DNA of 64,000 bases from Ardenticatenaceae bacterium. Lineage in GTDB: Bacteria; Chloroflexota; Anaerolineae; Promineifilales; Promineifilaceae. The stretch spans positions 1-64,000 of the forward strand of contig JACKBT010000017.1 in assembly GCA_020634415.1 (NCBI GenBank). The letters run 5' to 3'. Positions 20,032 through 39,993 of this stretch are shown here, piece by piece (position 1 is the first letter of the stretch; each line of letters begins with the position of its first letter). Both the position numbers and the translations under genes were made by a program. The notes beneath the pieces are model-generated. The model was not told the DNA's origin. It saw nothing but the letters and a program-made list of their open reading frames with translations, and made no database searches.

Positions 20032-20835
20032 GTGTACGCCAAAAGCTTCAACTTATCCGAAACACCGTTCAAGATATTGCCCGACCCCCGTTTTCTCTGG
20101 TATTCCAGTCAACACAAAGAAGCCAAAGCCAAAATAGAGTTTCACATCGCCCAAAAAGATGGCCCTGTATATTTGAGTGCAGAGGTTGGCTTGGGCAAAA
20201 CCTCTATAGCTCAGCGTTTGCGCGATGAGTTTGCCTCAGATGCCTCCAAGAAAGTCGTCTTTGCCTTTGCGCCCAACCTGAAAACAGCCAATCAATTCTT
20301 ACGCTTCATCGCCGATGAGTTTGAGGTCAAAACAGAACGCTCCTACGCCGACACCTTGCGTAACTTTGAGCAGTACCTGGTAGCGCAGTATCAAGCTGGC
20401 ATCTCCCCTATCCTGCTGATAGATGAGGCGCAGAACCTGACCTACGACACCTTAAAGACGATTCACCATCTGTTTAACTTCTCCACCCGCCATGAGTTCC
20501 TGATTCAAATTGCCCTGTTCGGCCAACCGGAGTTACACAAACGCATTGCCCGTTTCAAATCCTTGAGCAGCCGCATGTACATGGCCAAGTTGCAGCCCTT
20601 TACGGTTGACCAGACCCAAGAGATGATGCAGTTCCGTTGGACAGTGGCCGGTGGTCAGGAACTGCCCTTTGATGAAGGCGCTATCACCGAAATCTATCGT
20701 CTGACCGGGGGCATTGCCCGCGACATTTGTAAATTAGCCAATGAGACGCTGCTGCGAGCAGCGATTGAAAACAAACAAGTTATCAGCAAGGACACAGTGT
20801 TGGCTGCCGCGGCCGATGCTTTTGAGACGGTTTAG
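20032..20835 (+). CDS. ExeA/TniB-like AAA ATPase
   Basis: 267-residue AAA+ ATPase with a GTG start. The opening MYAKSFNLSETPFKILPDPRFLWYSSQHKEA is the standard start of ExeA-type ATPases. Walker A is EVGLGKTSIAQRL (about 53-65), Walker B is ILLIDEAQNLT (about 123-133), and the sensor region is IALFGQPELHKRI. The C-terminal helical lid contains RLTGGIARDICKLANETLLRA. ExeA acts in type II secretion, and TniB/IstB-like relatives serve transposition or plasmid functions; here neither a secretin nor a DDE transposase is near. It begins the gene series of the mobile element and is followed after 4 bp by the repeat-containing gene, so both are probably one transcription unit. Confidence 0.85.
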   Translation: MYAKSFNLSETPFKILPDPRFLWYSSQHKEAKAKIEFHIAQKDGPVYLSAEVGLGKTSIAQRLRDEFASDASKKVVFAFAPNLKTANQFLRFIADEFEVKTERSYADTLRNFEQYLVAQYQAGISPILLIDEAQNLTYDTLKTIHHLFNFSTRHEFLIQIALFGQPELHKRIARFKSLSSRMYMAKLQPFTVDQTQEMMQFRWTVAGGQELPFDEGAITEIYRLTGGIARDICKLANETLLRAAIENKQVISKDTVLAAAADAFETV

Positions 20836-20839
20836 GCCT

Positions 20840-21424
20840 ATGGGTATCTATGACCAACTGGTTCAGTTAGAAAAAGGCACGCCACCAGATTCATCTAAGC
20901 CGATAGAAGGCACGTCGTTAAATCCAGAGCCAGACCAGAAGAAACCCGTTCCCGTCACCCAAACAGCCTCTCACTCCAAGAAAAGCCCGAAAGCCAGATT
21001 GCCCGAAAGCCAGATTGCCCGAAATCAGGCAAGCCAGAAAGCCAGATTGCCCGAAAGCCAGAAAACCAGAAATCGGGCAAGCCAGAAATCAGGCAAGGAG
21101 ACTAATCTCCCCCAAAGCCCAGTGGCGAGCCAACCGACTTGCCTACCGCAAAGTCAGCCAGAACCATGGTTTGAGGTCATTCAACCCTATCTAGATTTAA
21201 GAGCCGCCAACAAGGTTTCTCTACGGTATCCAGATACCTTAATTGCCTGGTTGGAAGAAGCCTTGTATCAGCTCAAGAAAAGCAGCCACCAAAAGCTGAC
21301 TAAGAACGCTATCCTGGTAGCCGCCCTGGCCTATGTCTTGTGGGATTTGGAGCAGTATGGTCAGGCAAGTTTTCTCTATCGACTGTTCAGCCAGGAAGCA
21401 AATGAAGAGGAAGGGGCAGCCTAG
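20840..21424 (+). CDS. hypothetical protein with internal DNA-repeat region, 194 aa
   Basis: No family recognised. The N-terminal 30 residues precede a low-complexity stretch (about 50-95) made by a DNA repeat with core AGCCAGATTGCCCGAAA, read as ARLPESQ/IARNQASQ. The C-terminal 85 residues (WFEVIQPYLDLRAANKVSLRYPDTLIAWLEEALYQL...) are predicted helical and could be a DNA-binding or dimerisation domain. The start ATG lies 4 bp after the ATPase stop. More copies of the same repeat lie outside the gene at 21445-21510, so the repeat is probably a DNA site that the reading frame tolerates. The pairing 'ATPase, small protein, repeats' resembles a plasmid partition locus; that is a guess. Confidence 0.65.
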   Translation: MGIYDQLVQLEKGTPPDSSKPIEGTSLNPEPDQKKPVPVTQTASHSKKSPKARLPESQIARNQASQKARLPESQKTRNRASQKSGKETNLPQSPVASQPTCLPQSQPEPWFEVIQPYLDLRAANKVSLRYPDTLIAWLEEALYQLKKSSHQKLTKNAILVAALAYVLWDLEQYGQASFLYRLFSQEANEEEGAA

Positions 21425-21515
21425 ATGATAGCTTTGCATTACATTGCCAGATTGCCCGAAATCTTGCATGCCAGAAAGCAAGAAAGCCAGATTGCCAGAA
21501 AGCAAGAAAGCTGGC
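20990..21515. repeat. interspersed short repeats, core AGCCAGATTGCC
   Basis: The core AGCCAGATTGCC or close variants occur around 20992, 21009 and 21040 inside the gene 20840-21424, and again near 21446 and 21485 in the following non-coding gap, with related pieces (AAGCCAGAAATCAGGC, CCAGAAAGCAAGAAAG) between them. Copies are on the same strand. Such arrays can be iterons, partition sites or simply unstable repeats. Confidence 0.7.
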
Positions 21516-21570
21516 ATCTACAGCCTTGACAGGGCTGTTACGGCCGGTGTAGCGTTGACCTAATCAACTT

Positions 21571-21870
21571 ATGCAACAGATACAACAACTCTTACAACAG
21601 AAGAAGCGAAACGGCCAGAAAAACCCCAGGCTGCGTTACGAGTTCCAAGCCTATGGGCAACGGCTGGCCCAAGATTTGCAGGATTTTGCCAAAGAAACCC
21701 TGTACATGAAGCTGGCTAAAGAAGTGGACAGAACCTTACTAGAACAGGCACGGGAGCACGTGTTGGGGTCAGAGGGCGTAAGGAATCGGGGAGCTTTGTT
21801 CATGTATAAGCTGAAGGAGTTAAGAGACAAGAAAAAAAGAATGAACCATTCGGTGTCAGATAAGGCTTGA
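21571..21870 (+). CDS. hypothetical basic protein, 99 aa
   Basis: Unrecognised small protein rich in Lys, Arg and Gln (MQQIQQLLQQKKRNGQKNP...). Residues about 18-65 are predicted helical. No clear ribosome binding site is seen before the ATG. A hairpin with arms CAGATAAG/CTTATCTG-like sequence lies at its 3' end (about 21858-21892). It may be a DNA-binding accessory protein of the mobile element, but nothing specific supports this. Confidence 0.5.
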   Translation: MQQIQQLLQQKKRNGQKNPRLRYEFQAYGQRLAQDLQDFAKETLYMKLAKEVDRTLLEQAREHVLGSEGVRNRGALFMYKLKELRDKKKRMNHSVSDKA

Positions 21871-22461: not shown

Positions 22462-22593
22462 CATTGGCCGGTGAAGCGTAGCGGGTTAGTGGTTATCAAG
22501 TTGAGATAGCACCAGTTTGATGGCTTTGCCAAGTGGATGGTCGCTAGTTGACAGAGGGACTTGGTGACAAGGTATACTGACATCAGATTGCCC

Positions 22594-23313
22594 ATGCCAG
22601 ATAGTGTCCAACAAAAACAAAAACGCCCAGTGAAACGCCGCAGTGATTATGGCTCGGTGCAGGCCACCGAGCGGGATCTGTACGTGCTGCACTGGATTGG
22701 TCAGATGTATGCGGCCAGATTAGACCATGTGCAAGTATTGGGGGCGTTGAAAGCTGAGGATAAGACGATTCAGCTTTCCGGCCAATTGGGGTATTCGGCC
22801 ATGAAAAACATCTACCGCCGTTGGCTCAAAGCCGGTTGGGTCGAGAAACAGAAGCTGCTGGTGAGCGAACCGCAATGGCTGTGGTTAAGCCGTCGGGGGT
22901 TACAAGCGGTCGGTTTAGACTATGCCTATCGTTCCCCCAGTTTAGCCAGATTACGTCATATCCATGAAGTCAACAGGGTTCGTTTATACATTGAAGGCGT
23001 GCTGGGGGATAAAGCCGAATGGGTCAGTGAACGGGATATTAATCAGGCCCGGAAAGAGGCCGGTAAAAAGCATCTGGTAGATGGGGAATTATTGTTTGCT
23101 GGCAAGCGGATCGCCATCGAGGTGGAGTTAAACCGCAAGTCGCAAAAACGTATGGCTTCTATTTTGCAGGAGCTGAGGCGGGATTATGAAGCGGTCTGGT
23201 ATTTTGCCGATACAGCCTGCTGGCAGACGGTGCAGACGGCCATGAGCCAGCAGAGCCACTATCAAGAAACCTTTGTGCTTTATAACCTGGCCGATGTCGG
23301 CCGCAGTGAGTAA
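22594..23313 (+). CDS. replication-relaxation family protein (first copy)
   Basis: 239-residue protein of the replication-relaxation (Replic_Relax) type, found on plasmids and integrative elements. The winged-helix N-terminal half contains ATERDLYVLHWIGQMYAARLDHVQVL and YRRWLKAGWVEKQKLLVSEPQWLWLSRRGLQAVG. The C-terminal half (RLRHIHEVNRVRLYIEG...LVDGELLFAGKRIAIEVELNRKSQKRM) has the D-x-n-E-V-E arrangement of restriction-fold nucleases. ATG 22594 is chosen because the product then opens MPDSVQQ, matching MPDTAQQ of the second copy at 28982. It overlaps the start of the pump gene. No relaxase is present, so this protein may help open or nick the origin; that is inference. Confidence 0.85.
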   Translation: MPDSVQQKQKRPVKRRSDYGSVQATERDLYVLHWIGQMYAARLDHVQVLGALKAEDKTIQLSGQLGYSAMKNIYRRWLKAGWVEKQKLLVSEPQWLWLSRRGLQAVGLDYAYRSPSLARLRHIHEVNRVRLYIEGVLGDKAEWVSERDINQARKEAGKKHLVDGELLFAGKRIAIEVELNRKSQKRMASILQELRRDYEAVWYFADTACWQTVQTAMSQQSHYQETFVLYNLADVGRSE

Positions 23314-25027
23314 ACAGCCGGTCATTGACAATACCCGGCCAGGGCAGTTTGAGTGGCTGCTGCTGCAGGGTTTGTTTTATGGCTTGTTATTGCTGGTCTT
23401 GGGGCCACTGACGGTGGGCCTTGCTTTTTTCCTGAAACAGAAACCAGTTAGTAGGCGAGTGCGCCTTTTATTCCTGACCATCGCTGGTTCGTGGCTGTTA
23501 TTCACCCCAATCTTGTTGCCCACCTGGCGACAGGTTTGGTTTTACACCATACCGTTGTCGCCATTGGTATCCTTTCTCCTCCAGGCATTTAACGACATCG
23601 TCCTCCGGCTCAAACCGAAATCCCTGCAAGAGCATTTAGTGGCCGAAGAACAGGCCCTACAAGCTCAAGAACAACGCTTATCAGAGCGAGCCAGTCATTT
23701 GCCACTGCCTGGTGTAGAAGCCGGTCAGCTGCGTTTGGGAGCCAGGATTCAAGGCGACTCCTTCTCTACCCATGTTGGCTTTTGTCAACGAGAGGGGTAT
23801 CTCTGTATGGAGGAAGGAATATTAGACCAACATCTTTTCCTATTAGGGACAACTGGGGCAGGCAAAAGTGAAACCATTAAACGACTGGTCACAGAAATAT
23901 TAACCGCCACCGATAGGCATATTTACTTTGTGGATGGCAAAGGGGACGAAGATTTAGCTAATGATATGCGTGCCTTAGCCCACCAATTTGGCCGGGGCAT
24001 GGCTCCTGTTTTCAAGTTAGGCTTTGACCAATATGGGGCTGTCTATGATGGCTTTCGTGGCTCAGCAGCCGATGTCTACAACCGGCTGTGTGCCCTTATC
24101 AGTGTGCAGGAAGTGGAAGGCAATGCCCAATATTATGCCGATGGCAATCGGGATTTGTTGCAGCTCATCTGTTACCCTCGCGGTGGGCCACCCCGTACTT
24201 TTGAAGCGGTCAGAAGCAGACTACAAAAGGCATGGCTGCAGCAGGCGTATCATGACAATCCAGTAGAGTTGGAGATGATTGACTCTCTCAGCTACAAAGA
24301 GATAGAAGGCTTGGCGCGGCGCATACGGCCGTTGGTACGAGAATTCAGCCCTTGTATTGGCCCCGAAGGCTTTGCCTTAGAGGAAACCCCCTGTGCCATC
24401 TTCTCCCTCAGAGTGCAGAGTGTGGGGGACACCTCCAAACGCTTCCTGGATTTTCTAGTGGAAGACTTGAAAGATTTCATCGGTAAACGGCAGCAGCATC
24501 CCTCAGTGCTTATCATTGATGAGTTTGGTCAGTTCAGCAACAAGAACATCACGGCCTTGTTATCCTTAGCCAGAAGCTCCCAGTTAGGCATCATTTTAGC
24601 CACTCAGGATGTAGCCAGTCTCAAAGATGAAACAACCAAGAAGCTGGTCTTAGCCAACACTCGTACCAAGCTGCTGATGGCCACCGACTTTCCCGAAGAT
24701 GTGGCTACGTTGGCTGGCACGTTTTACCAGATTGAAGCCAGCATCCAACAGCAAGATGGAGGGATGACGGGTTTAGGCAGTGCCCGGGTGCAACATGCTT
24801 TCAAGGTAGACATGAATGAAGTAGCCCAATTACAACCGGGCGAAGCCTTTCTTATCCGCCAACGTCAGGCCGCCAAGATTCGGATTAAGGCTATTGGCAA
24901 GGTGGAGCATATTGCGGCACAACCAGCCGAACTGCGCCAGAACAGCCTCACAAAAGAAGCCAAAAAAGCCAAAACACCGCCTAAATTACCGCCAACAAAG
25001 CGTGACTTTACCCCTGGAAAACCGTGA
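23294..25027 (+). CDS. membrane DNA-pump ATPase, VirD4/TraG-FtsK-like
   Basis: About 577 residues. Two hydrophobic segments near the N-terminus (LLLQGLFYGLLLLVLGPLTVGLAFF and LLFLTIAGSWLLFTPILL) anchor it, as in coupling proteins. Walker A is LLGTTGAGKSETIKRL (about 185-200) and Walker B is SVLIIDEFGQFSNKN (about 405-419), followed by RSSQLGIILATQDVASL, the sensor stretch typical of VirD4/TraG/HerA ATPases. The C-terminus is Lys-rich. It overlaps the preceding gene; ATG 23294 and GTG 23306 are both possible starts. Family members move DNA through a membrane pore. With no relaxase or mating channel nearby it may move double-stranded DNA by itself. A short inverted repeat (AGCGTGC/GCACGCT, 25063-25088) follows the stop. 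Confidence 0.88.
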   Translation: MSAAVSKQPVIDNTRPGQFEWLLLQGLFYGLLLLVLGPLTVGLAFFLKQKPVSRRVRLLFLTIAGSWLLFTPILLPTWRQVWFYTIPLSPLVSFLLQAFNDIVLRLKPKSLQEHLVAEEQALQAQEQRLSERASHLPLPGVEAGQLRLGARIQGDSFSTHVGFCQREGYLCMEEGILDQHLFLLGTTGAGKSETIKRLVTEILTATDRHIYFVDGKGDEDLANDMRALAHQFGRGMAPVFKLGFDQYGAVYDGFRGSAADVYNRLCALISVQEVEGNAQYYADGNRDLLQLICYPRGGPPRTFEAVRSRLQKAWLQQAYHDNPVELEMIDSLSYKEIEGLARRIRPLVREFSPCIGPEGFALEETPCAIFSLRVQSVGDTSKRFLDFLVEDLKDFIGKRQQHPSVLIIDEFGQFSNKNITALLSLARSSQLGIILATQDVASLKDETTKKLVLANTRTKLLMATDFPEDVATLAGTFYQIEASIQQQDGGMTGLGSARVQHAFKVDMNEVAQLQPGEAFLIRQRQAAKIRIKAIGKVEHIAAQPAELRQNSLTKEAKKAKTPPKLPPTKRDFTPGKP

Positions 25028-25323
25028 TTTTAGGCCAAAGAAGCGTGACTTTAGATTTCGATTAGCGTGCCTTTCTAAAAGCACGCTTTGCTGATTATTC
25101 CCAGGCAAAATCGCCTAAACAGCTGCGCGGACACCTATGCTTCTGAGCATAGAATGAACTATTTTCTTTGTCCAGGCACCACTTCGTTCGCTTCGCGTCC
25201 TTGACAAAGCCTCTATTTCAATCTAAGCACATAAGCATAGGAAATATTCAGATATTACCTATGCACGTTGACAAATTAATAGATTGAGAAGTAGTTGGTT
25301 TTACAGAAAGGGGGTGATAGAAA
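25028..25323. other. non-coding gap with small hairpins
   Basis: Holds the inverted repeats AGCGTGC...GCACGCT (25063-25088) and CTATGCTTCTGAGCATAG (25131-25150), and at the right end a strong ribosome binding site, AAAGGGGGTGAT, for the next gene. No gene supported. Confidence 0.5.
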
Positions 25324-25557
25324 GTGAGTAATGAAGAACATTACAAGTGGATGAGGCTTCGTGCTATCCAATATGAACGGATGAGAGAAGCACAAGAATG
25401 GAGGGAAAGGAGAATGAAACAACCTTATCGGTACAAGACCTCAAGTATTAGACCGAAAGTTGGTTTTCCTTTTAACCTACTCGATGGCTCAATCAAAGTT
25501 AGCCTAAGAACCATCGAGTATTTGGTTAAATTACTCGTTACCAAAATTATGAGGTAA
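25324..25557 (+). CDS. hypothetical basic protein, 77 aa
   Basis: Small protein with GTG start and an excellent ribosome binding site (AAGGGGGTGAT) 8 bases upstream. It is rich in Arg, Lys and Tyr (YERMREAQEWRERRMKQPYRYK) with a hydrophobic, helical C-terminus (IKVSLRTIEYLVKLLVTKIM). The gene contains an inverted repeat, ACTCGATGG...CCATCGAGT. A hairpin GAGATCGGG...CCCGGTCTC (25582-25607) follows the stop. No family recognised. Confidence 0.6.
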   Translation: MSNEEHYKWMRLRAIQYERMREAQEWRERRMKQPYRYKTSSIRPKVGFPFNLLDGSIKVSLRTIEYLVKLLVTKIMR

Positions 25558-26375
25558 CTTACAAACCTTCATAACATAAAAGAGATCGGGGGGCAACTCC
25601 CGGTCTCTGGTCTGAAACAATCTATTGAGATTGGTTATATAAAAAAAAAGAAGATGTCAGTCCCACAGAATCATGGGTATCACATACTGCTGCCTCTGAT
25701 GAAAATTGGATACAGAATAAATAGTCTCATTACTATAGGCTTACATCAACACTATAGGCTTTTATCAAACAAACTGCTGTAGCAAATGATTGCACCAATC
25801 CGCTATCTAAAATTGCATGAGAAAAAGCAGATAGCAGGCTAACACCAGGGGGTATGGCTTGTTAATTGGGGCTTAGTAGATGAGGGGGTGGTGGTTGGGA
25901 TAGGATTGAGGTTAATATTTAGAAGCCCTGTTTAGTAGGGGATTGTCGGTATTGGTGTTGTGGTAGTAGTTGCCAGTGTGGGTGATGTAGTGGAAAAGGG
26001 GAGGGGGTGTGGGGGAGGGGTGACCAGAAAAATGTGCCCTGTGAGTCGCTACAGTTTGTTCTGGGAAAGTTTTGATTGAAAAATGATAGATGATAGCTCG
26101 ACTAACCTAAAGTGCCTGAGTGAGCATTGTAGCGCTTTGTCTTAGAATATGGTTGGACTAACCAGCCAGTGTTATTCACGCCTTCTTTATTTCTTCACGC
26201 TTTCTTCACGCCTGCCTTAGTACATTTGTGCTAAACTATTGCCTTAATATTGGGGTGCTGTAAAGCCATTACGAACTGTAGTGAAGAACGGGTTGGGGGG
26301 ACTGTTCTGTCGTTCGCCTTCATCTGTCATGATGAAACGCAATAAATCTCTCGTTCGCATCAGGTTGGAAATCTC
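25558..26375. other. 818-bp non-coding region inside the mobile element
   Basis: Contains the hairpin GAGATCGGG/CCCGGTCTC near 25582-25607, a duplicated ACTATAGGCTT (25731 and 25752), and G-rich tracts with GTGTGGGGGAGGGG near 26005. I find no reading frame with a ribosome binding site. It is the longest gene-free stretch of the element, so an origin, a regulatory RNA or a decayed gene could lie here; I cannot support one. Confidence 0.4.
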
Positions 26376-26672
26376 ATGAAAGAATGCCCACACTGTTATG
26401 GCCTAACACCAGTAGAGTCCTCTTACTGCATTCGCTGCGGCGCTGCTTTATCCACCACTGGTGTAGGAATGCCACCACGAGAGCATTCACAAGAATCCCA
26501 CCCACCTGGATACCCTAACCCTCAAGAGATTGGCAATCCAGATATTGGCAACCTCCTCGCCCAAATACCCAATCTTTTTACTCTACGCGGTTGTCTCTTT
26601 TTACTGGCAGTCATGACCATCTGTAGTTTCGTGTCCATGATTTTAGAATCTCTTTTCCGTTTTTCGCCCTAA
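26376..26672 (+). CDS. zinc-ribbon membrane protein, 98 aa
   Basis: Starts with a double CxxC zinc ribbon (CPHCYGLTPVESSYCIRCGAAL, residues about 4-25), then a Pro-rich spacer and one C-terminal membrane span (LFLLAVMTICSFVSMILESLF). It lies 17 bp before the next zinc-ribbon gene, so the two are likely co-transcribed. Function unknown; such proteins often anchor or regulate membrane complexes. Confidence 0.75.
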   Translation: MKECPHCYGLTPVESSYCIRCGAALSTTGVGMPPREHSQESHPPGYPNPQEIGNPDIGNLLAQIPNLFTLRGCLFLLAVMTICSFVSMILESLFRFSP

Positions 26673-26689
26673 GAGTGTGAGGAAGCATT

Positions 26690-27499
26690 ATGACACAGAC
26701 GAATTTTTTTAAACTATGTGCTAACTGTAAAAAGCATAACCCACCAGATGCCGCCTATTGTTTGGGGTGTGGGGTCTCTTTTCATTACCCATTATCCGCT
26801 ACTCAGGATAGACGGCAGGGATACCAAAACGGCCGTTCCAACCAGCAGCTTTATGACCCACCTCAGGTCAATTTACGTGAATTAGAAAACGTGGCTGAGG
26901 AGTTGAACAATCTGTGGCATGACTTCTATCTTATTCGTCAAACTGGCAATGAGAATAGTGTCCTTTGGCATGTCCTGTTCAAGCATCTAGCAGCTTATCA
27001 ATTGGATAATAAGATACACGAAGCCAAACTCCGCATTGAAGATATTTATATAGAAGGTTATATCCAAGCTCACCAGATAGGTGTGCAGCGTTTTCTGTCT
27101 CTGTTAGAGCAACAAATCGCCCAAGAACTCGCTTTGCTGCAACTCGGTTATGACCAGGAACTTGAACGGCGGCGCTTTGCCTTTGTCCAAGATCAGATGG
27201 ATGAAGCATTGTCTAGATACCTACAACGACAAAAAGATGCCTTCATTGTCTCGCAGCATCTTGATGATGAGGCAGTTCTCGGTAGGGTCGAGCGGTTTGC
27301 CAAGGCAGTAGACCATTTGGACCAACTTTTCATCAAAGAGGGTCGCCTGGGTGGACTGGCTTATGAGGACAAGCAGATTATCTTGGCTGAACTGGTTAAC
27401 TTGCTCAAAGCGGAAATATTCCCCGGTATTGTTGAAGAGCATAATTTTGCGGCGGATATTGACGAGCTAGGGGAAGTCGTGAACAGCAGATATCCGTAG
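26690..27499 (+). CDS. zinc-ribbon helical protein, 269 aa
   Basis: N-terminal zinc ribbon (CANCKKHNPPDAAYCLGCGVSF, residues about 10-31) followed by about 230 residues predicted to be mostly helical and rich in Glu, Gln and Leu (QQIAQELALLQLGYDQELERRRFAFVQDQMDEAL...), consistent with a coiled-coil or helical-bundle scaffold. It lies 8 bp before the HerA/VirD4-like ATPase and is probably its partner. It contains one of only three ACGGCCGT sites of the mobile element (26829). No known family recognised. Confidence 0.7.
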   Translation: MTQTNFFKLCANCKKHNPPDAAYCLGCGVSFHYPLSATQDRRQGYQNGRSNQQLYDPPQVNLRELENVAEELNNLWHDFYLIRQTGNENSVLWHVLFKHLAAYQLDNKIHEAKLRIEDIYIEGYIQAHQIGVQRFLSLLEQQIAQELALLQLGYDQELERRRFAFVQDQMDEALSRYLQRQKDAFIVSQHLDDEAVLGRVERFAKAVDHLDQLFIKEGRLGGLAYEDKQIILAELVNLLKAEIFPGIVEEHNFAADIDELGEVVNSRYP

Positions 27500-31514: not shown

Positions 31515-31897
31515 TGATTGCTTCCCCTTTTAGCAGCGCAGGCTCCCCTCACCCCATCTTACGGCATTGTCGTCCCTCTGGAAAGAGGCAGATGGGCACT
31601 TACTCGGTTGGGGAACATCTGTGAATCTAGGGGCTATTTATGTCCTGGCTGTGATCGGCATAAACCAGAAAAGAACAAAGAATTGACAGAGTGCTGTCCC
31701 TCCTGTGTAATTTTTGTGTAGGTCTGCACCTTGAATCAACAACCAAAAGGAGAAGAGATGATGTAGAAAACCCTGTGGCTGGGGGAGTGGGGAAGAGCCA
31801 ATCTTTAGTAGCTCAATCTTATATGAATGCACGAAGCCGAACGGAGTTGCGACCTCTGTTCGGCTTCTCATTTTCCGGGCATAGGAGGCCCGACAAA
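31515..31897. other. non-coding leader of the 340-residue gene
   Basis: Holds a hairpin with arms GAAGCCGAAC and GTTCGGCTTC (31833-31867), followed by TCATTTTCC, just before the ribosome binding site AGGAGG at 31882. It may act as a terminator or a leader structure. An upstream frame-compatible extension of the gene is open, but the internal ribosome binding site favours ATG 31898. Confidence 0.5.
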
Positions 31898-32920
31898 ATG
31901 TTAGCTGACAATTGTAACACCGATTCCCAGCCTGTCACCCATCCTCACCAGTGGGGTCTGGATGAACTCGAAGCCCGCGCCGGTGCCTTAGTCAATGAGG
32001 CTCTGAGCAACTGGCCCGATGCTATCAAGCAGGTGCACTGGCAGGATATGAAACAGACGGCGATGTTGACGTTGCTGGAACACCAAGACCAAGCTGTAGC
32101 CTATGCCTACCTGGCTGCCCAATCCGCCTTGAAGAACTACAAGTGGGTCCACATTCGGGGCTTGAACGGCGGTTGGAAATCGTTGGCCTGTCACCAGTTG
32201 GAAGTCTTGGATGAACCACTGACCATTGAGGGTGACAGCTTTGATGCGCCTCGTGACAATCTGTTTTGGCGGCTGCCCGCCTCCGAACGGGATGTCATCC
32301 CCAGACCGGTCGAGTGGCAGGTCATCCGTCATCTAGACCAGGTTCGTCCTTTGACCACCGCAGCCATTAGCCGTGAAATCCTCATTATCCTGGCCGGGAT
32401 GTCCACCAGCAACTGGTATCCTGAACAGATATACCGCGCTGCGCTTATCATGGCTATGTTAATGACGGGCTACACCTGGGCGGATGTGGAAACACAGATG
32501 GTGCTGGACTACAGCCAGGTATGGGATATTTGGTGGCACTATCGTAAAACCAGATTGACCCCCTATCTGAAATTGACACCCATCCACCAAGAGTTGGTGA
32601 AACTCCGGGGTTCTTTCCGCCTTTGTTATTACGAAGAGCTGTCCACATACTGGTTGAACCAGGCACAACGGAAAATGGTTGTCTTGCCACATGGCATCTA
32701 CACCATTACCTATAAACGGCGGGGTCGTCGGCATGGACAGAAGGAGGGTTGCCTGGAGGCATCGCTACAGAAAGGGGTCAGTGTCAATGGCAAACCGGTG
32801 GTGAGAGCCGTCAGTTTGGGGGCAGTGGGGCAGATCACGCGCCAACGGCTGCTGACCTCATCGCACCGCTTGGATAGGAAGATGGTTCAGTTGGGGTATC
32901 GGCCCGCTGTCATGGCTTAA
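31898..32920 (+). CDS. hypothetical protein of the mobile element, 340 aa
   Basis: Start set at ATG 31898, 11 bases after AGGAGG. No family recognised with confidence. Residues about 10-100 (LDELEARAGALVNEALSNWP...AVAYAYLAAQSALKNYKWVHIRGLNGGW) are helical and vaguely like sigma-factor or replication-protein helices. The middle has a helix-turn-helix-like stretch (TWADVETQMVLDYSQVWDIWWHYRKT). The end is basic and contains GRRHGQKEG. It may be a DNA-binding control or replication protein. Followed 230 bp later by an excisionase-like gene. Confidence 0.6.
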   Translation: MLADNCNTDSQPVTHPHQWGLDELEARAGALVNEALSNWPDAIKQVHWQDMKQTAMLTLLEHQDQAVAYAYLAAQSALKNYKWVHIRGLNGGWKSLACHQLEVLDEPLTIEGDSFDAPRDNLFWRLPASERDVIPRPVEWQVIRHLDQVRPLTTAAISREILIILAGMSTSNWYPEQIYRAALIMAMLMTGYTWADVETQMVLDYSQVWDIWWHYRKTRLTPYLKLTPIHQELVKLRGSFRLCYYEELSTYWLNQAQRKMVVLPHGIYTITYKRRGRRHGQKEGCLEASLQKGVSVNGKPVVRAVSLGAVGQITRQRLLTSSHRLDRKMVQLGYRPAVMA

Positions 32921-33151: not shown

Positions 33152-33379
33152 ATGCCAAATGATGATTCTGAAAAAAACGAAGAACAACCCCGTCTGGATG
33201 ACCTCATCCCCTTAAGTGAAGCGGCCAAGTTCAGTGGGCTATCTCAAGGTCATTTGTCGTTGCTCATCCGGCAAAAAGAGTTATGGGGGGTTAAGATTGG
33301 CCGGAATTGGGTGACGACGGAGAAGGCGGTGCGGGCCTATTTAGCCCTGAATCGCAAACCTGGCCCCAAGCCTCAGTAA
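33152..33379 (+). CDS. excisionase-like helix-turn-helix protein, 75 aa
   Basis: Residues about 20-65 form a MerR/Xis-type winged helix: LIPLSEAAKFSGLSQGHLSLLIRQKELWGVKIGRNWVTTEKAVRAYL. Such proteins bind att sites or promoters and steer serine or tyrosine integrases towards excision. A second one at 37710 shares the layout. Start ATG has a weak upstream site. A strong terminator lies at 33537-33566. Confidence 0.8.
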   Translation: MPNDDSEKNEEQPRLDDLIPLSEAAKFSGLSQGHLSLLIRQKELWGVKIGRNWVTTEKAVRAYLALNRKPGPKPQ

Positions 33380-33621: not shown

Positions 33622-34290
33622 TTACCAGTCCCATTTGAGAATATATTGCTCGTGTAAATGAGGTTTATTCGTTTCCCATTGGATGTGCCAACGGCCGTCG
33701 GCCAACTGTTGAGCTTCCAGGTCATATTTGTGTTGGGTGCGCAGTGCCACTAACCAGGCATGGATAGGGGGTCTATTGGCCGGGAAGATGACCTGGATTT
33801 TGAGCTTCTTGGTCTTGTGACTGATTTCCGTGCCCCATTGTTCCATGGCACGGGTAAAGCCATTGAGGATACCCCATTGAATATGGAATTCATCCACATC
33901 CCCCTTTTTTTTGACATCATGCAAAGCGATGAGGATGAAGGTTTTCTGGTCAGGACGATAATAATCTACTGCTTTACCTGGTGAGCACTGGTAGTCAATG
34001 AGGATGTCGCCATCGCCCCAGGCCTGGTCTTGGTAGGCGATGATGTTGTTTTGACGGTATTGGACTTTTTGGCGTTTGCGGAAAACGGCCGCTTGCCCCT
34101 GGGGGTCAAGGAGTTCCAGTTGCGTCTCATACTCCAGCACTTCATACATACCTTCATCGGCCAGACCACGCCCAACTTTGCGGATGACTTGCCAGGCACG
34201 GATGCAGGCTTCCAAAAAGGGCTGGTTTAGCAGAGCTAAGGCTAGATTCAGATACCAGGTATTCTTCTGTTTGTCTGGGGATATTGGCAT
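33622..34290 (-). CDS. hypothetical protein, 222 aa
   Basis: No recognised family. An alternating hydrophobic pattern (YEVLEYETQLELLDPQGQAAVFRKRQKVQYRQNNIIAYQDQAWGDGDILIDYQCSPG) suggests a beta-rich fold. Residues QVIFPANRPPIHAWLVALRTQHKYDLEAQQL and the end WDIQW-type stretch are not diagnostic. It is one of few element genes carrying an ACGGCCGT site (33691). It reads leftward like the two membrane genes to its right, after a 165-bp gap, and may belong to the same unit. Confidence 0.6.
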   Translation of the reverse strand: MPISPDKQKNTWYLNLALALLNQPFLEACIRAWQVIRKVGRGLADEGMYEVLEYETQLELLDPQGQAAVFRKRQKVQYRQNNIIAYQDQAWGDGDILIDYQCSPGKAVDYYRPDQKTFILIALHDVKKKGDVDEFHIQWGILNGFTRAMEQWGTEISHKTKKLKIQVIFPANRPPIHAWLVALRTQHKYDLEAQQLADGRWHIQWETNKPHLHEQYILKWDW

Positions 34291-34455: not shown

Positions 34456-36561
34456 TCATTCCATGCCTGCCACCGCCTCTGTCACCCAGGCATAGGTCTT
34501 GCCATTCTTGAAGCCATACACCTGACGACAAATACGATTTTTACTCATCCCCCTGTTGTATAGCTGCTGCATGTATTGCTGCTCAGCCGGGGTGGGCGGT
34601 CTATCATGGCTAAAGGGGATTTGGGGATTTAGAACCAGTTCTGGTTCTGGGATAAAGTCTGGTTCCAGGGGGACAGAACTGGTTTGAACCGGTGCTAGCG
34701 GTTCTACTGGTTCCAGGTTTTGCGAGACCAGCAGCCAATCTTGACAGGTAACAGGCGGCACTGGATGTTGAGTCAGAAAAGCAGTGAGGTCGTGGTCACT
34801 AGGGTTAGCCGCCGTGCCCTGTTCCAACTGACTGCCTAACATGGCTAAGAACTGACCTTCGCCTAAGCTCTCGGCCCCATCAGTGTCTAGGACAGCCCGA
34901 GAGATATTGGCTTTGGCCACGCGAAAACTGATACGAGCATTGCACTGCTCACGCCAGTTGAGACCAGGGCCGAGGATACGATAGGTGGGGTCAGTCAAAG
35001 CCCCAATGCTGCCCATCGAGAGTTTGCGAGCCCGGCTAGCATAGGTAGCCAACAGCCCCCAGAACTGTCGCTGCTCCCGACTGGACATGAGCATAGCCAG
35101 GGAGAGGACTTCATCAATGACGATGAGGACAGGTGGCCCACTGCGGAGGTGGTCGGGTAAACGGCTCCATTCGGAGACACGAGCTTGGCGCAAGATATTT
35201 TCACGGCGGGCCATTTCGCCGAGGGCCGATTGAAGTAGTTGCATATAGGTGTGGGCCTGACCATGCATGATGAAGGCATTGGGGTGGTCATAGAAAGGAC
35301 TGAAATCGGCGGCCGATTCATTGAGCAGCACCACCACCGCACCCTGGGCCAGGGCTTGCGCCACCATCGGGCGTAAGGCACGCCGTGTTTTACCGGCTCC
35401 ACTAGAACCGGATAACAAGATATGAGGCGTGTAAGCCAAATTCAGACGGATGACCCCTTGCAGGCCCATACCCAAGACCAGCCCATTGCCAGTGTGCGCT
35501 TGGAGGGTGGGCCAGCTGATGGGTAAGGGTAGTTGTTCCCTGTCAGCTAAAAAGCTCTCTGGGGGCAGCGTAGGCTCTTGTAGGGGGGTGTTTGGCGGAG
35601 GGGACGCATATTGGATGGACTCAGAACTAGACAAAGGGCCAAGATGACGTTCTCTATTTATCTGGTCTGGCAATCTGGGCGGATGACCAGGGGCATGGCG
35701 GGCTTGTTCCATTAAGGTACGCAGCACGCCCCCGGTGACCAGGGTTTGTATTTCCTCCGCTGTCAAGTCGGGCATAGTGACCTGACCTTGTTCATCAATG
35801 ATGAGGCTGGCCTGATGCATTCGTAACGGATCTGTCACGATGAGCTGACCATTGTGAGCCGACAGGAGGAGCACGTTGCCGTGTTGACCATAACGCACCA
35901 AGCCCAGACGGTTGACCAGGATGGGGATGATTTTCCAGAAGAAGAGGATTAATAAAGTGGCGGCGGCGAGACTGGCTAAACCCAGCATGATGGTGACAGC
36001 CAGGGTGACTATCTGTTCTCTACGGGCAGCCGCCAGCGCTTGCTCTAGTTCGGCCGCTTGGCGTGTGGCCTGGAGAGAATCCACTGTGGCTAAAGCCGAG
36101 GCGGTGCTGGTCGCGGCTGCATTTTGTTGGACTTGGGCGGTTATAGTCGTGTTGGCCCGTTCGGTCGCGGCTACGGCAGTTGCTTGCACTTGTTGGGTGG
36201 CAGCCATGAAGGTTTCTTGGGCCTGGACGGTAGCACTATCGGCGGTGAGGGCCAGGTTGAGAGCATTGAGGGTTTGTTGGGCTTGGCTGGTAGCGGTGTT
36301 GGCTTGAGCTGTCAATTGTATCTCAAAGGCGACGGCTTGTTGGGTCAAGTTACGCGCATCCAGGGTGGCGGCGGCATCGCGCAGGTATTGGTCAGCTTGA
36401 GCCGTAGCGATGAGGGCAGGGTTGGCGGTGGCTTCGCCGACAACGGCACTGGCAGCCGAGGGGGGAGTGGTGCAGGCGATGAAGAGAGAGGCCAGATAAC
36501 CATATAGGCAGACAAAAATCACCCACTGTTTAGGTTGAACGAATCGCTTCTTGGGGGACAT
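34456..36561 (-). CDS. membrane DNA-pump ATPase with long extracytoplasmic coiled region
   Basis: 701 residues in four parts. (1) Residues 12-30 form a signal or lipoprotein signal (VIFVCLYGYLASLFIAC, possible lipid site Cys30). (2) Residues about 40-183 are Ala/Thr/Gln-rich with repeated TATAQA/ATAVAAT-type steps, a probable outside coiled region. (3) A membrane span at about 184-212. (4) An inside FtsK/HerA-like ATPase with Walker A LLSGSSGAGKTRRA (382-395) and Walker B VLIVIDEVLSLAML. The last 45 residues form a helix-turn-helix (PAEQQYMQQLYNRGMSKNRICRQVYGFKNG), as the gamma domain does in FtsK. ATG 36561 lies 4 bp after the stop of 36566-37468, so the two are coupled. Third pump of the element; likely the transfer motor. 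Confidence 0.82.
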   Translation of the reverse strand: MSPKKRFVQPKQWVIFVCLYGYLASLFIACTTPPSAASAVVGEATANPALIATAQADQYLRDAAATLDARNLTQQAVAFEIQLTAQANTATSQAQQTLNALNLALTADSATVQAQETFMAATQQVQATAVAATERANTTITAQVQQNAAATSTASALATVDSLQATRQAAELEQALAAARREQIVTLAVTIMLGLASLAAATLLILFFWKIIPILVNRLGLVRYGQHGNVLLLSAHNGQLIVTDPLRMHQASLIIDEQGQVTMPDLTAEEIQTLVTGGVLRTLMEQARHAPGHPPRLPDQINRERHLGPLSSSESIQYASPPPNTPLQEPTLPPESFLADREQLPLPISWPTLQAHTGNGLVLGMGLQGVIRLNLAYTPHILLSGSSGAGKTRRALRPMVAQALAQGAVVVLLNESAADFSPFYDHPNAFIMHGQAHTYMQLLQSALGEMARRENILRQARVSEWSRLPDHLRSGPPVLIVIDEVLSLAMLMSSREQRQFWGLLATYASRARKLSMGSIGALTDPTYRILGPGLNWREQCNARISFRVAKANISRAVLDTDGAESLGEGQFLAMLGSQLEQGTAANPSDHDLTAFLTQHPVPPVTCQDWLLVSQNLEPVEPLAPVQTSSVPLEPDFIPEPELVLNPQIPFSHDRPPTPAEQQYMQQLYNRGMSKNRICRQVYGFKNGKTYAWVTEAVAGME

Positions 36562-36565: not shown

Positions 36566-37468
36566 CTACCCTCCTTGTCTGCCGTTGAGTTGGGCTTTCA
36601 AGCGGGAAACGGTGCTTTCACTGGTTTGATGGCGGCTGGCAATCTCTGTCTGGGTCAGGTCATCGCCTGCCAGCAGCTTGCCAATGTCTTGCACCAGAGG
36701 ATTGAAGGTTTGCAGGATGCGTTCACTTTCTTGCAGGCTGGCAAGCTGACTTTCCAATTGTTGATTGCTTCTGTCCAATTCTGCATTTTGTTTTTCCAGC
36801 CGACCGAGACGAGTCTCGAGCGGTTGCAGTTTGGCCGTTAGTTCTGCCACCTGGTTTTCAAGGGTTGTGTTCGTCTTGCCAACCACTTCCAGTTTGTGTA
36901 AGGCTTCTTGCAGGTCATGGTGCCATCTTTCCGCTTGGGTTTGCCATATTTGCAGTTGCTGCCGCAGTTGAGTGAGGATGCCTGCTTTGCGGGAGTGGAG
37001 CATCATCTCCAGGCCACTGCCGATATACATGATGGCCGCCACAGCATAAGACAGCAAACCTGCCAGACGAATAGTGCTGTTATTGTCGAAAGTGATGATG
37101 GCAATGGCCCCCGATGCCAGGTAGATGCCGGTTAGCACTGCTGCTGTGATAAAGCCTGTCAGGGCTTCACGGTCGCCTTCGCGCCAGGTGGCGAAGAAGT
37201 CCAAAGCGGTATGGGCTACTTTGACTCCTGTAGCTTCCAGAGCAATAGCCAGCGCAATGGCGACGGTCATGGCCCCGGCCTGACCGATGAGGGGGACAAG
37301 GGCTTTGTGGCTGGCGAAGGCAAACATGAGGGCTGGCGGCAGGGCGGCACAGATGAGGCCGAGGGTGCCGGACACACTCATGAAGGTGTGTCGTGCTTCT
37401 TGCATGTATCGTTCTACAGTTGTGGCAAAGGGGTGTGGTTCGTAGGGAACCATCTGTTTGTCTTGCAT
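36566..37468 (-). CDS. membrane coiled-coil protein with C-terminal helix-turn-helix, 300 aa
   Basis: Start set at ATG 37468 (MQDKQMVPYEPHPF) because GGAGAG lies 6 bases before it; an upstream ATG adds 16 residues. Four to five membrane spans fall within residues about 30-165 (TLGLICAALPPALMFAFA, AGAMTVAIALAIALEATG, GFITAAVLTGIYLASGAIAII, AGLLSYAVAAIMYIG). A long coiled coil follows (about 185-260, LENQVAELTAKLQPLETRLGRLEKQN...). The last 40 residues are a helix-turn-helix (LTQTEIASRHQTSESTVSRLKAQL). It is the first gene of a two-gene unit with the pump. It would tether DNA to the membrane beside that pump; this role is inference. Confidence 0.8.
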   Translation of the reverse strand: MQDKQMVPYEPHPFATTVERYMQEARHTFMSVSGTLGLICAALPPALMFAFASHKALVPLIGQAGAMTVAIALAIALEATGVKVAHTALDFFATWREGDREALTGFITAAVLTGIYLASGAIAIITFDNNSTIRLAGLLSYAVAAIMYIGSGLEMMLHSRKAGILTQLRQQLQIWQTQAERWHHDLQEALHKLEVVGKTNTTLENQVAELTAKLQPLETRLGRLEKQNAELDRSNQQLESQLASLQESERILQTFNPLVQDIGKLLAGDDLTQTEIASRHQTSESTVSRLKAQLNGRQGG

Positions 37469-37506
37469 CGGAATCTCTCCTGAGCCGCTTTTTGCCAGAA
37501 ACAAAA

Positions 37507-37535
37507 AACCGCCCACTGGTAGCCGGTAGGCGGTT
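37507..37535 (-). terminator. hairpin with T run in the leader of the membrane-pump operon
   Basis: On the minus strand, arms AACCGCC and GGCGGTT enclose 15 bases and are followed by TTTTTGTTT. It sits 40 bp upstream of ATG 37468, so it is either the end of an upstream leftward RNA or an attenuator. Confidence 0.7.
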
Positions 37536-37709: not shown

Positions 37710-37937
37710 ATGTCCGACGATGTCAACGATAAAAACAGTCTAATCTCCTTAGGTGATGCCGCTGAAATTTTTGGCTTTTCTGCTGATTATCTGCGCAATC
37801 TTGCTCAAAGAAATCGGTTGAAAGCTCAAAAAATTGGCGGCATATGGTTAACTACTCGTGCCAATGTTGAAGAATATATAGAAAGTCGCCAGAAACGCGG
37901 AGCATATCGTGACGACATAGACTCTGAAAGCAATTGA
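37710..37937 (+). CDS. excisionase-like helix-turn-helix protein, 75 aa
   Basis: MerR/Xis-type protein: ISLGDAAEIFGFSADYLRNLAQRNRLKAQKIGGIWLTTRANVEEYIESRQ (about residues 12-62), the usual 'L--AA---g-s---lr-l---grl-a-kiGg-W-tt---v--Yi' pattern. The ATG has no clear ribosome binding site, so it may be made from a leaderless message. Placed 310 bp before the large serine recombinase, the normal position for a recombination directionality factor. Confidence 0.82.
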   Translation: MSDDVNDKNSLISLGDAAEIFGFSADYLRNLAQRNRLKAQKIGGIWLTTRANVEEYIESRQKRGAYRDDIDSESN

Positions 37938-38247
37938 CAACAGTTCGTTTGCGAACTATAATCACAGTATAATCTAATAGCACTAAAAACGCAACATGGG
38001 CTTAGGTGCGTCAACACCTAGCCCATGTCTACCCAAGACCTGATGTGGCAGGCACCGGGCTGATTTTATTTTATCAACAGCTATCTATTGTGGGTAGCTT
38101 GTTAATTGATATATCAGCTAGAGCCGCTTCTCAGGTTTGAGGAGCGGCTTTTTGTTTATTCAAATGGTTTTGCAGAAAGGATAAGTAACAAGAAGAAATA
38201 TCAAAACAAATATTTAGTTCAGCCATATTCAGGCTGGAAAGGAGCAT
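37938..38247. other. hairpin-rich leader of the recombinase gene
   Basis: Two strong hairpins: ACATGGGCTTAGGTG/CACCTAGCCCATGT (37994-38028) and AGCCGCTTCTC/GAGGAGCGGCT (38122-38149), the second followed by TTTTTG and thus a Rho-independent terminator. Ribosome binding site GGAAAGGAG directly precedes ATG 38248. A terminator between the excisionase and recombinase genes suggests separate control. Confidence 0.65.
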
Positions 38248-39975
38248 ATGTCCAATGGCGAGACAGAAAAAAATACAACTCAGCAACCCCAATTCTTTTT
38301 AGCACCCAATGCGGATGCATTTAAAGATCATCCACTTATTAAGTTACGTTTGAGTCCAGATTTGAGAAAAAAGAAAAATAAGGAAAAAAGGAAGATAAAG
38401 ATGAGATACGCAGCTTACACACGAATTAGTTCAGACGAGCAGATTGGTAATTATTCGATAGATGCCCAAAAGCGAGCCATAGAAGCCTGGGTGATTACTC
38501 AAGGTGGAATATTGGCAAATGTCTATGTTGATGAAGGTTACTCTGGTCGAACAGCTGATCGCCCTGCATTCAAAAAGCTACGAAATGATGCCAGAAAGCG
38601 TAAATTTGATGCGATTGTTGTTCACAAATTTGATAGGTTTGCCCGTAATCGCACAGATGCCATAGCGATCAAATCGTTACTGCGTCATGACTATGGCATC
38701 AAGGTTTTTTCAGTCAGTGAGCCATCCGAGGATAGTGATGGCCCAATGGGCGCACTGATTGAAGGAATTATGGAATCTGTGGCAGATTGGTACAGCCAGA
38801 ATTTGGGTGCCGAGACTGCTAAAGGAAAGAAAGAGCGAAGTCATCAAGGCATCCACAATAACCGAGCACCATTTGGAATGAAGAAGAACAAAGACAAGGT
38901 TCTCGTTCCAGATGAAACTGAATTACCTGGATTAATCCTTGCCTTTGAAAGCTATGCAACTGGTAAATACAGTGACAAGGATATAGCCCATTTACTGAAT
39001 CAACGTGGCTATAAAAGCAAAACAGGTCGGCCGTTTTCAAAAGATACTATCCGAAGTATGCTACAAAACCGCACCTATCTAGGTGAAATCAAGTATCAAA
39101 AGTACAAACGACACGCAAACGGTAAACGCTCATTTGAAGCTCCTATTGAACTGTTTGAGGGTCAGCACGAAGCGGTAATTGATGTAGAGTTATTTGAAAA
39201 GTGCCAAGAGGTGAGAGCAGGGCGGAGATCACACCGCCAAGCAACAAAGCGATTTAACCATTATTTGTTACGCAATTTAGTTTATTGCTATCGCTGTTGT
39301 AGTAACCCACCTGAGGGCAAAACGTTCCAGTATTATGGTAAAATGCGAGGTCAGTCCCAATGGAATGGTAATCACCTTTATTATCGCTGTCGTGCTTCTG
39401 ATTTAGGCTACGAATGTGAACAAAAAGGAGTTGTTGTAGACGACATTGATAATCAAGTAATTAATACTTTAATGACTTTGAAGCCCCCTAAGACTTGGCG
39501 TGAGGGTATAACCAAAACAATGAGTGAGCTTTTAGGTGAAAAGGGCCTCGAGGAACGACTAGATGAGATTCGGGCTATAATCAAACGAATGGACACTCGT
39601 TGGGATCATGGCTTTTTTGCCGATGAAGACGAATATATGCAACAACGAATAAAGCTACAACTCGAGTTGGAGCAACTTACGCCAGTGCCTATGAATGATT
39701 TAGAGCGTGCTGCTGATTTGTTAGAAAACTTTCAAATTCATTGGGAACAACTTCAGGGGGATCCAGAAGCCCAACATGAGTTGGTTAAGCTTATTGTGGA
39801 ACGAGTTTATGTGAAGGATGATAGATTAGTGGCGATGACACTACGTTCAAACTATCATTTAGTATTAGGCCATAACGGAAATGGGCCAACCTTTCACAAG
39901 GTTGACCCATTATACGCCCACGGGAGCGACGGGGTTCGAACCCGCGACCTCCGGCTTGACAGGCCGGCGTGCTGA
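38248..39975 (+). CDS. large serine recombinase (integrase of the element)
   Basis: 575 residues. After a 51-residue Lys-rich leader the catalytic domain begins RYAAYTRISSDEQ, with nucleophile Ser61, and continues to FDRFARNRTDAIAI and IMESVADWYSQNLG. The recombinase domain (about 205-330) has GMKKNKD..., SDKDIAHLLNQRGYKSKTGRPFSKDTIRSMLQNRTYLGEIKY. The zinc ribbon has YCYRCCSNPPEG and YYRCRAS...CEQKG. A coiled coil follows. GGAAAGGAG precedes the ATG. The last 18 residues (HGSDGVRTRDLRLDRPAC) are encoded by the antisense strand of the tRNA-Asp gene, so the stop depends on the integrated state. These enzymes join attP and attB in one direction and need a directionality factor for excision, probably 37710. 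Confidence 0.92.
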   Translation: MSNGETEKNTTQQPQFFLAPNADAFKDHPLIKLRLSPDLRKKKNKEKRKIKMRYAAYTRISSDEQIGNYSIDAQKRAIEAWVITQGGILANVYVDEGYSGRTADRPAFKKLRNDARKRKFDAIVVHKFDRFARNRTDAIAIKSLLRHDYGIKVFSVSEPSEDSDGPMGALIEGIMESVADWYSQNLGAETAKGKKERSHQGIHNNRAPFGMKKNKDKVLVPDETELPGLILAFESYATGKYSDKDIAHLLNQRGYKSKTGRPFSKDTIRSMLQNRTYLGEIKYQKYKRHANGKRSFEAPIELFEGQHEAVIDVELFEKCQEVRAGRRSHRQATKRFNHYLLRNLVYCYRCCSNPPEGKTFQYYGKMRGQSQWNGNHLYYRCRASDLGYECEQKGVVVDDIDNQVINTLMTLKPPKTWREGITKTMSELLGEKGLEERLDEIRAIIKRMDTRWDHGFFADEDEYMQQRIKLQLELEQLTPVPMNDLERAADLLENFQIHWEQLQGDPEAQHELVKLIVERVYVKDDRLVAMTLRSNYHLVLGHNGNGPTFHKVDPLYAHGSDGVRTRDLRLDRPAC

Positions 39976-39993
39976 CCGCTGCACCACGCCCCC
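39921..39993 (-). tRNA. tRNA-Asp (GTC)
   Basis: Full cloverleaf on the minus strand: acceptor GGGGGCG/CGCTCCC, D arm GTGC...GCAC, anticodon stem CCGGC/GCCGG with loop CTGTCAA (anticodon GTC), T arm GCGGG TTCGAAC CCCGT, discriminator G. CCA is not encoded. The 3' end faces the recombinase gene, which overlaps it; this is the usual placement for an integrase at a tRNA attachment site. I found no second copy of the 3' half elsewhere in the window by eye. Confidence 0.95.

Follow-up and report, generated by a model that had tools for sequence, protein, structure and literature searches.

An integrated element at a tRNA-Asp gene of an Ardenticatenaceae bacterium (Chloroflexota; Anaerolineae) encodes three DNA pumps with no mating channel in view, which raises the question of how its DNA might leave the cell. 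The element lies in the left part of the window, by which we mean the whole 64,000-nucleotide stretch that was analyzed (positions 1 to 64,000 of contig JACKBT010000017.1, assembly GCA_020634415.1; the source contig has 108,512 bases). The original prediction, made from the letters of this stretch, described a relaxase-free element that pumps double-stranded DNA in the manner of the actinomycete integrative and conjugative elements (AICEs). Analysis of its proteins and of their relatives, which come from metagenome-assembled genomes (MAGs) of Anaerolineae and other Chloroflexota, points instead to what is probably a MOBC integrative mobilizable element (IME-like), integrated at tRNA-Asp by a serine recombinase and carrying anti-phage Hma genes as probable cargo. 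Its transfer genes are best read, on sequence and structural models, as two relaxase-motor pairs with an extra FtsK/TcpA-like pump beside the recombinase. Relatives are cited by our handles for genomes (G), contigs (C) and loci (L); C27 and C11 both belong to G001.

Two relaxase-like proteins and their motor ATPases

The genes on which this reading turns are the following:

22561-23313, plus strand: RRx1, a divergent MOBC-like protein (NCBIfam MobC_subf match, motif, profile matches and model)
23294-25027, plus strand: VirD4/TraD-type coupling protein (type IV coupling protein, T4CP; TrwB_AAD_bind 1.1e-5, TraG-D_C 9.8e-6)
27508-28980, plus strand: HerA/TraG-like ATPase, the second pump (DUF87/HerA 1.4e-5, T4SS-DNA_transf 4.6e-5)
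28982-29908, plus strand: RRx2, a MOBC-family relaxase (Replic_Relax, PF13814, 1.9e-20, 74.2 bits with a cut-off of 25.3)
34456-36561, minus strand: FtsK/TcpA-like pump (FtsK_SpoIIIE 1e-5)

Pfam confirms the three predicted ATPases of the FtsK/HerA/VirD4 class, at 23294, 27508 and 34456. The prediction had also named two replication-relaxation proteins; these are indeed present, as the Replic_Relax protein RRx2 and its Pfam-invisible relative RRx1, but they are not evidence of a relaxase-free element, since PF13814 is the relaxase family MOBC (Table 1 of PMC5357655; PMC12857230). Judged by sequence and model, RRx2 appears to be a clear member of MOBC: beyond its membership of PF13814, its AlphaFold model (pLDDT 86, pTM 0.85) combines a winged helix with a restriction-endonuclease-like domain of the PD-(D/E)XK-like kind with conserved acidic residues, the structural matches being MarR winged helices as well as BstEII, PaqCI and Cdn1, and the motif P178-D179..E202-x-D204 is found in 19/19 sequences. 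A single base separates RRx2 from the HerA-like ATPase, and the two genes are adjacent in all six loci that are readable on both sides (the window, L006 with a broken HerA gene, C27, G274, G290 and G350:C63). The HerA homologs that adjoin RRx2 in C27, G274, G290 and G350 are longer (727-940 aa), and the RRx2 relative in L003 is solitary. In plasmids RRx2 has no tblastn match, and the Herpetosiphon plasmid pHAU02 carries a T4CP, a Replic_Relax gene (1.8e-19) and a protein annotated as VirB4-like.

RRx1 combines a winged helix with the motif D174..E187-x-E189-x3-K193, whose D, E, E and K are kept in 14/14 distinct proteins. The E-x-E-x3-K spacing is that of the catalytic residues of TraX. RRx1 matches the NCBIfam model NF041423 (MobC_subf) at 6.6e-7 with 28.9 bits, the cut-off being 200, and the same model reaches 1.8e-8 to 7.9e-6 with the other five RRx1 proteins examined. 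Pfam gives no match to RRx1, and neither the curated MobC model nor PF13814 is matched above its cut-off. A comparison of the RRx1 and RRx2 profiles gives a probability of 96.1 (E 3e-9), via the winged-helix part. The AlphaFold model of RRx1 has a pLDDT of 82.8, and VIA-align of its C-terminal half returned a list filled by winged-helix chains. Against sequences in the PDB neither RRx1 nor RRx2 has a convincing match, the best (0.0043 to a beta-arrestin, 0.016 to SeqA) being taken as chance. RRx1 is named MOBC-like because it falls short of the curated sequence test while showing the motif and the genomic context, and by its sequence it appears to be a divergent relative of the MOBC relaxases with a catalytic-type motif. 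The claim that the element has no MOB relaxase thus fails, because both proteins belong to (RRx2) or resemble (RRx1) MOBC relaxases.

The T4CP gene overlaps that of RRx1 and encodes two N-terminal transmembrane (TM) segments; its closest solved structure by sequence is IcmO/DotL, in the P-loop region only. RRx1 stands beside the T4CP in 7/9 Chloroflexota loci (the window, L001-L004, G290 and G274, with a small gene between the two in L003), the other two being G256 loci with a truncated T4CP and no RRx1. Two copies of one truncated T4CP occur in this same genome (G256:C12 and G256:C41; L012, L013, L030) and are probably duplicated or decayed element remains. No T4CP relatives were found in viral contigs with the few patterns used, nor in phage records.

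The independent test of the RRx1-T4CP pairing is a profile of five Chloroflexota RRx1 sequences (A4) run against plasmids of other phyla; a further profile, A3, combines pHAU02 with seven Chloroflexota sequences. A T4CP match occurs in 42 plasmid records, and eight of these, hand-picked among the 20 listed, were examined, namely pHAU02 and seven plasmids from other phyla. The A4 search covered 255 open reading frames (ORFs) of >=60 aa from six plasmid stretches, hand-picked among records with a distant T4CP match (Sporomusa, two of Microbacterium, Herbiconiux, Gryllotalpicola and Streptomyces), and its top six matches (7.2e-17 to 1.8e-5) are the six genes immediately upstream of the six T4CPs, the seventh match being at 0.4. 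With genetic code 4 applied to the Spiroplasma plasmid psAtri6, the annotated gene that follows the T4CP ranks first of 14 (A4 2.1e-5, A3 1.3e-7), so that the top A4 match adjoins the T4CP in 7/7 plasmids of other phyla. Over whole records A4 has a sole match in pMspBDGP8B (2.3e-5) and in pSSP59 (1.3e-16), and PF13814 has none in either. A4 does not match pHAU02, where the partner of the T4CP is the Replic_Relax protein. MOB-suite/PLSDB typing assigns two of the seven plasmids to MOBC and five to the non-mobilizable class, one of the five having trb genes.

Two of these plasmids merit separate comment. The RRx1-like gene of psAtri6 (L042:7608-10025) keeps the D..ExE..K motif, is visible only with genetic code 4, and sits on a plasmid typed as non-mobilizable. 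Sporomusa pSSP59 (L044:8324-11236) has trb-type genes of a type IV secretion system (T4SS) yet is typed as non-mobilizable as well; the RRx1 homolog upstream of its T4CP is likely its missed relaxase. CloDF13 was left unused as a MobC reference, its gene table being without mobC and A3 matching one fragment weakly (0.00023).

Layout, borders and relatives of the element

The remaining features are as follows, their Pfam matches coming from a scan of 30 window proteins; HmaB, HmaC and the DUF262 protein were covered by PADLOC only:

5286-18285, minus strand: HmaABC-type anti-phage genes (PADLOC HmaA/B/C 1616/1147/1073 bits), comprising HmaC 5286-8582, HmaB 10205-13021, a DUF262 protein 13018-14781 and HmaA 14800-18285
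20032-20835, plus strand: ExeA/TniB-like AAA_22 ATPase (AAA_22 8.6e-23)
20840-21424, plus strand: small protein in the position of ParB or a ribbon-helix-helix (RHH) protein (C27 has a 29% identical homolog at the corresponding position)
20985-21088, plus strand: 8-bp repeat array 1 (GCCAGAAA/GCCAGATT/GCCCGAAA), inside the small gene; 11 of 49 matches
21446-21524, plus strand: 8-bp repeat array 2, intergenic, after the small-gene stop codon and upstream of RRx1; 5 of 49 matches
26376-27499, plus strand: two zinc-ribbon-like proteins of 98 and 269 aa (DZR 0.008 and 0.0034, under cut-offs)
33152-33379, plus strand: HTH_17 excisionase-like protein (6.2e-5, under the Pfam cut-off; 64% identical homolog in G350:C63)
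33622-34290, minus strand: conserved element protein (homologs in C27, C11, G274 and G350:C63, 42-56% identity)
36566-37516, minus strand: four-TM, coiled-coil protein with a C-terminal helix-turn-helix (HTH)-like part, adjoining the FtsK pump
37710-37937, plus strand: HTH_17 excisionase-like protein (3.1e-8)
38248-39975, plus strand: large serine recombinase (Resolvase 2.5e-30, Recombinase 8.9e-20)
39920-39994, minus strand: tRNA-Asp(gtc), the integration site and right border

Read from the left, the Hma genes are followed by the ExeA-like ATPase, the small protein, RRx1 with the T4CP, the zinc-ribbon-like pair, HerA with RRx2 and a set of small genes, and then by an excisionase-like gene, the conserved protein, the FtsK-like pump, the four-TM protein, the second excisionase-like gene, the serine recombinase and tRNA-Asp. 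The right end is as predicted: both excisionase-like genes are recovered, and the last codons of the recombinase overlap the tRNA gene. In contrast, the left border proposed at 20032 is unsupported, in that words of >=12 bases from the tRNA-Asp region do not recur in positions 1-39,800, and no left end was located between the Hma genes and tRNA-Asp. As a serine recombinase may leave a very short repeat, the missing repeat does not prove a left end beyond the window, although such a position is the likelier case. Among the other genes in this interval, the protein at 31691-32920 has neither a Pfam nor a PDB match. After the T4CP, positions 25030-26370 are AT-rich over 1.3 kb, contain a single small ORF and start with a 41-bp imperfect repeat; in L002 and L003 this place holds a polytopic membrane protein, of which tblastn detects no remnant in the AT-rich stretch. 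On the host side of tRNA-Asp lie insertion sequence-type transposase genes (40393-42975; DDE_Tnp_1 and UPF0236, the latter perhaps split across two frames) and a host gene at 43347-47111 with strong matches (E <= 1e-100; best 50% identity, G255) in 18/396 Anaerolineae genomes, the search being confined to that class. This and the other searches of the genome class are samples (396 or 298 genomes, mostly MAGs) with few candidates scored per genome.

The gene set recurs, as the original prediction had proposed to check at tRNA genes. In C27 the recombinase is 74% identical and overlaps tRNA-Asp likewise, accompanied by the FtsK pump (54%) and the conserved protein (56%), and further by a long HerA-like protein, two RRx2 relatives, an archaeo-eukaryotic primase (AEP) and an ExeA-like ATPase (76%) with its small partner; by their sequence starts, the intervening genes look like restriction-modification cargo. 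The backbone is repeated in G350:C63, where the cargo is Hma-like and a 75% identical recombinase stands at the contig end, the tRNA lying off the contig. C11 is complete at 51.6 kb, with T4CP, RRx1, ParA, Hma-like genes and a tyrosine integrase; its ends are identical 20-bp repeats, one in tRNA-Lys and the other, 51.6 kb away, continuing as a second 3' tRNA half. It also encodes a second T4CP-like ATPase (TraG-D_C 2.6e-8). The proteins of relatives were chosen by ORF length, without a gene finder, and the Pfam scan covered few proteins in G274 and G350:C63. AEP primases, which bear on the AICE trait of element-encoded replication (RepSA/Prim-Pol type), occur in G274, C27, G003 and G350:C63; none was recognized in the window's element as far as it is in view. 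The T4CP family is found in 5/396 Anaerolineae genomes, in 3/56 and 1/20 genomes of two other orders and in 0/25 genomes of the likely host order, and the FtsK-lipoprotein pump in 3/396, a sparse and scattered distribution as expected of mobile elements.

Hma-like genes, 27-82% identical to those of the window, lie in or beside C11, G350:C63 and G185:C108, which makes them a recurrent cargo of these elements; the window's Hma genes probably belong to the element in this capacity. EAD7 proteins are also encoded in the window (4846-5250 and, weakly at 0.0049, 18675-19922) and in C11 (L028:9085-13662). EAD7 is an effector-associated domain typical of NACHT/STAND-type conflict systems.

To the left of RRx1, the ExeA-like ATPase has a 76% identical homolog beside the matching small gene in C27. 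The small protein has no Pfam match; it is presumed to bind DNA as a partition or relaxosome accessory protein, and one may guess that it is of RHH type. The ATPase beside the small gene is ExeA in the window, C27 and L002, and ParA in C11 and G274 (L028:3040-4256; L019:3227-4425), possibly a swap of partition ATPases. The repeat consensus GCCMGAWW has 49 copies in the window as against 19.8 expected (0/100 shuffles reach 49), 16 of which fall in arrays 1 and 2. The two-array layout is also seen in C27, C11 and G274, where the best word occurs 10-16 times as against at most 7 in 20 shuffles of each, the repeat words of C11 and G274 being different ones. The arrays could be a partition site (centromere), an operator or a binding site at the origin of transfer (oriT).

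The FtsK pump has a lipobox-like N-terminus, an alanine/threonine-rich stretch and TM segments, its coiled-coil stretch being presumed extracytoplasmic. By sequence, the closest solved structures are 6o1w, a "DNA translocase coupling protein" (1.1e-9), which we take to be TcpA of pCW3, and then FtsK. Homologs 54% identical stand beside the recombinase in C27 and G350:C63. Searches for the pump gave no relative in viral contigs with the few patterns used and two weak Hymenobacter matches in plasmids. Distantly related FtsK-lipoprotein pumps on Anaerolineae contigs of G185 and G350 (C71) (L059:16199-19436; L061:12120-21681) show the same layout beside DUF2637 proteins (2.8e-20, 1.3e-20) and ParA, and these loci are possibly AICE-like elements of Chloroflexota. 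The four-TM protein at 36566-37516 has a layout like that of the DUF2637 partners but no detectable sequence homology to them, and a homology between them was not adopted. No literature on DUF2637 together with FtsK was found.

Mobilization and the alternatives to it

In the proposed mechanism, excision by the recombinase together with an excisionase would yield a circular form of the element. One strand would then be nicked at an oriT, perhaps situated within or close to the 8-bp arrays at 20985-21524, by a metal-dependent nuclease of MOBC type, which could be RRx1, RRx2 or both. The two motors, namely the VirD4-type ATPase paired with RRx1 and the HerA-type ATPase paired with RRx2, would deliver this DNA to the membrane and drive it through a channel that might be supplied by a helper T4SS or, less likely, by the element's own membrane pumps.

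Among the 30 window proteins Pfam recognizes no HUH relaxase, VirB4 or other T4SS family. The 25/28 Pfam families listed for 42 proteins from C11 and C27 include neither a T4SS family nor a further relaxase family. Hence the predicted absence of a mating channel from view stands, in that no mating-pair formation (MPF) gene is seen in the window nor, by Pfam scans, in the complete 51.6-kb C11 element. In the sister elements, MPF families other than VirB4 were searched for in the C11 and C27 proteins. The VirB4 model TIGR00929 has no match at 1e-5 in G002, G003, G185, G256, G274, G290 and G350, which as MAGs are possibly incomplete, and scores a weak 26 bits in G001 as against 439 bits in a trb plasmid; the sister elements in those genomes are accordingly without a recognizable VirB4. 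Across the class, TIGR00929 at E <= 1e-20 finds VirB4 in at least 13/298 Anaerolineae genomes (three candidates scored per genome), so helper T4SSs do exist there. The FtsK pump is the obvious alternative conduit.

That pump is central to an AICE-like explanation, wherein it would move double-stranded DNA via a septum- or contact-like junction and the T4CP/relaxase pairs would be accessory or relics. Much of what suggested it remains valid: the element targets a tRNA, has three pumps, one of them of FtsK/TcpA type, and shows no T4SS family in view, and in being tRNA-integrated with an FtsK/TraB-type pump it resembles an AICE. Additionally, the window, C27 and G350:C63 all have the pump adjacent or close to the recombinase, and relatives of the pump in G350:C71 and G185 adjoin DUF2637 proteins and ParA. 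What does not survive is relaxase-free pumping of double-stranded DNA, which was dropped as the principal explanation once PF13814 proved to be MOBC; the AICE label fails because relaxase-type and coupling proteins, presumably used in transfer, are encoded. Further, full conservation of the catalytic-type motifs in the partners of the other two pumps makes these partners look to be under selection. Among solved structures, the nearest to the FtsK pump is annotated as a coupling protein, and according to PMC5365140 a single TraB translocase is what Streptomyces plasmids need. We regard this explanation as unlikely and, as RRx1 and RRx2 each stand beside a VirD4/HerA ATPase, prefer nick-and-load mobilization of an IME-like kind.

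A full integrative and conjugative element (ICE) with T4SS genes to the left of the window would account for a left end that was not found, and related T4CPs do occur on plasmids with such genes (trb in pSSP59, the VirB4-like annotation in pHAU02). However, the complete C11 element shows no T4SS genes in Pfam scans and VirB4 is wanting at 1e-5 in seven sister genomes, with the 26 bits in G001, so that this too is decidedly improbable. By far the least credible is that the HerA/T4CP and nuclease-like pairs are anti-phage modules carried beside Hma rather than transfer genes. PADLOC mad8 matches HerA (3.1e-12) and the element is rich in defense genes, but plasmids from other phyla carry RRx1-T4CP homologs, and of these plasmids one has trb genes and two are typed as MOBC; moreover, Replic_Relax is a recognized relaxase family.

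A bolder proposal would extend the mobilizable reading to a MOBC/AICE hybrid with which monoderm Chloroflexota would conjugate without a T4SS: MOBC-type relaxases would feed VirD4/HerA motors, and the FtsK/TcpA-like lipoprotein pump with its four-TM partner would serve as the exit. We hold this only tentatively, as a rather doubtful possibility. Better supported is the proposal that plasmids now called non-mobilizable carry, in the RRx1-type proteins, a relaxase lineage that has gone unnoticed.

Known systems and the meaning of the pairs

CloDF13 MobC and pAD1 TraX likewise pair a relaxase made of a winged helix and a restriction-endonuclease-like domain with a VirD4-type coupling protein. MobB is the coupling-protein partner of MobC in CloDF13. 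RRx2 shares PF13814 with these systems and RRx1 the D..ExE..K-type motif, whereas the window's element differs in having two relaxase-ATPase pairs, one relaxase outside Pfam, a HerA-like second partner and serine-recombinase integration at a tRNA in Chloroflexota. AICEs of the pSAM2 type, with their TraB pump, are also tRNA-targeted and use an FtsK-class membrane pump; unlike them, the present element has relaxase-type proteins, VirD4/HerA motors and a serine recombinase, and its FtsK pump has the lipobox-like N-terminus and a long stretch before the TM segments. The same N-terminus distinguishes the pump from pCW3 TcpA, and no TcpM relaxase or T4SS was recognized beside it. Among streptococcal IMEs as presented in PMC5357655, IME_Class_8 combines a MobC relaxase, VirD4 and a serine integrase, and Class_10 has two relaxases. 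On that account, a serine integrase with a MOBC relaxase and a VirD4-type protein but no MPF, as well as more than one relaxase, has precedent, while the extra HerA and FtsK pumps, the tRNA-Asp target, the defense cargo and the phylum set the window's element apart. Thermus transjugation (TdtA with NurA, ICETh1) is described as needing no relaxase (PMC5365140, PMC7767461); by these descriptions it resembles the present case in a HerA/FtsK-class pump by a nuclease-like protein on an integrative element with no T4SS, and departs from it in that the window's nuclease-like partners are MOBC-type.

What was supposed to be a relaxase-free pump element thus becomes one with two MOBC-type relaxase-motor pairs. 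Among the papers listed by a full-text search on ICEs with Chloroflexota, no title or abstract opening concerned such elements of that phylum. RRx1, invisible to Pfam and far under the NCBIfam cut-off, is overlooked by common tools, and, if it nicks DNA, mobility typing would undercount transferable plasmids and elements. Relaxase-pump pairs without a channel make it testable whether conjugation in monoderm Chloroflexota requires a T4SS.

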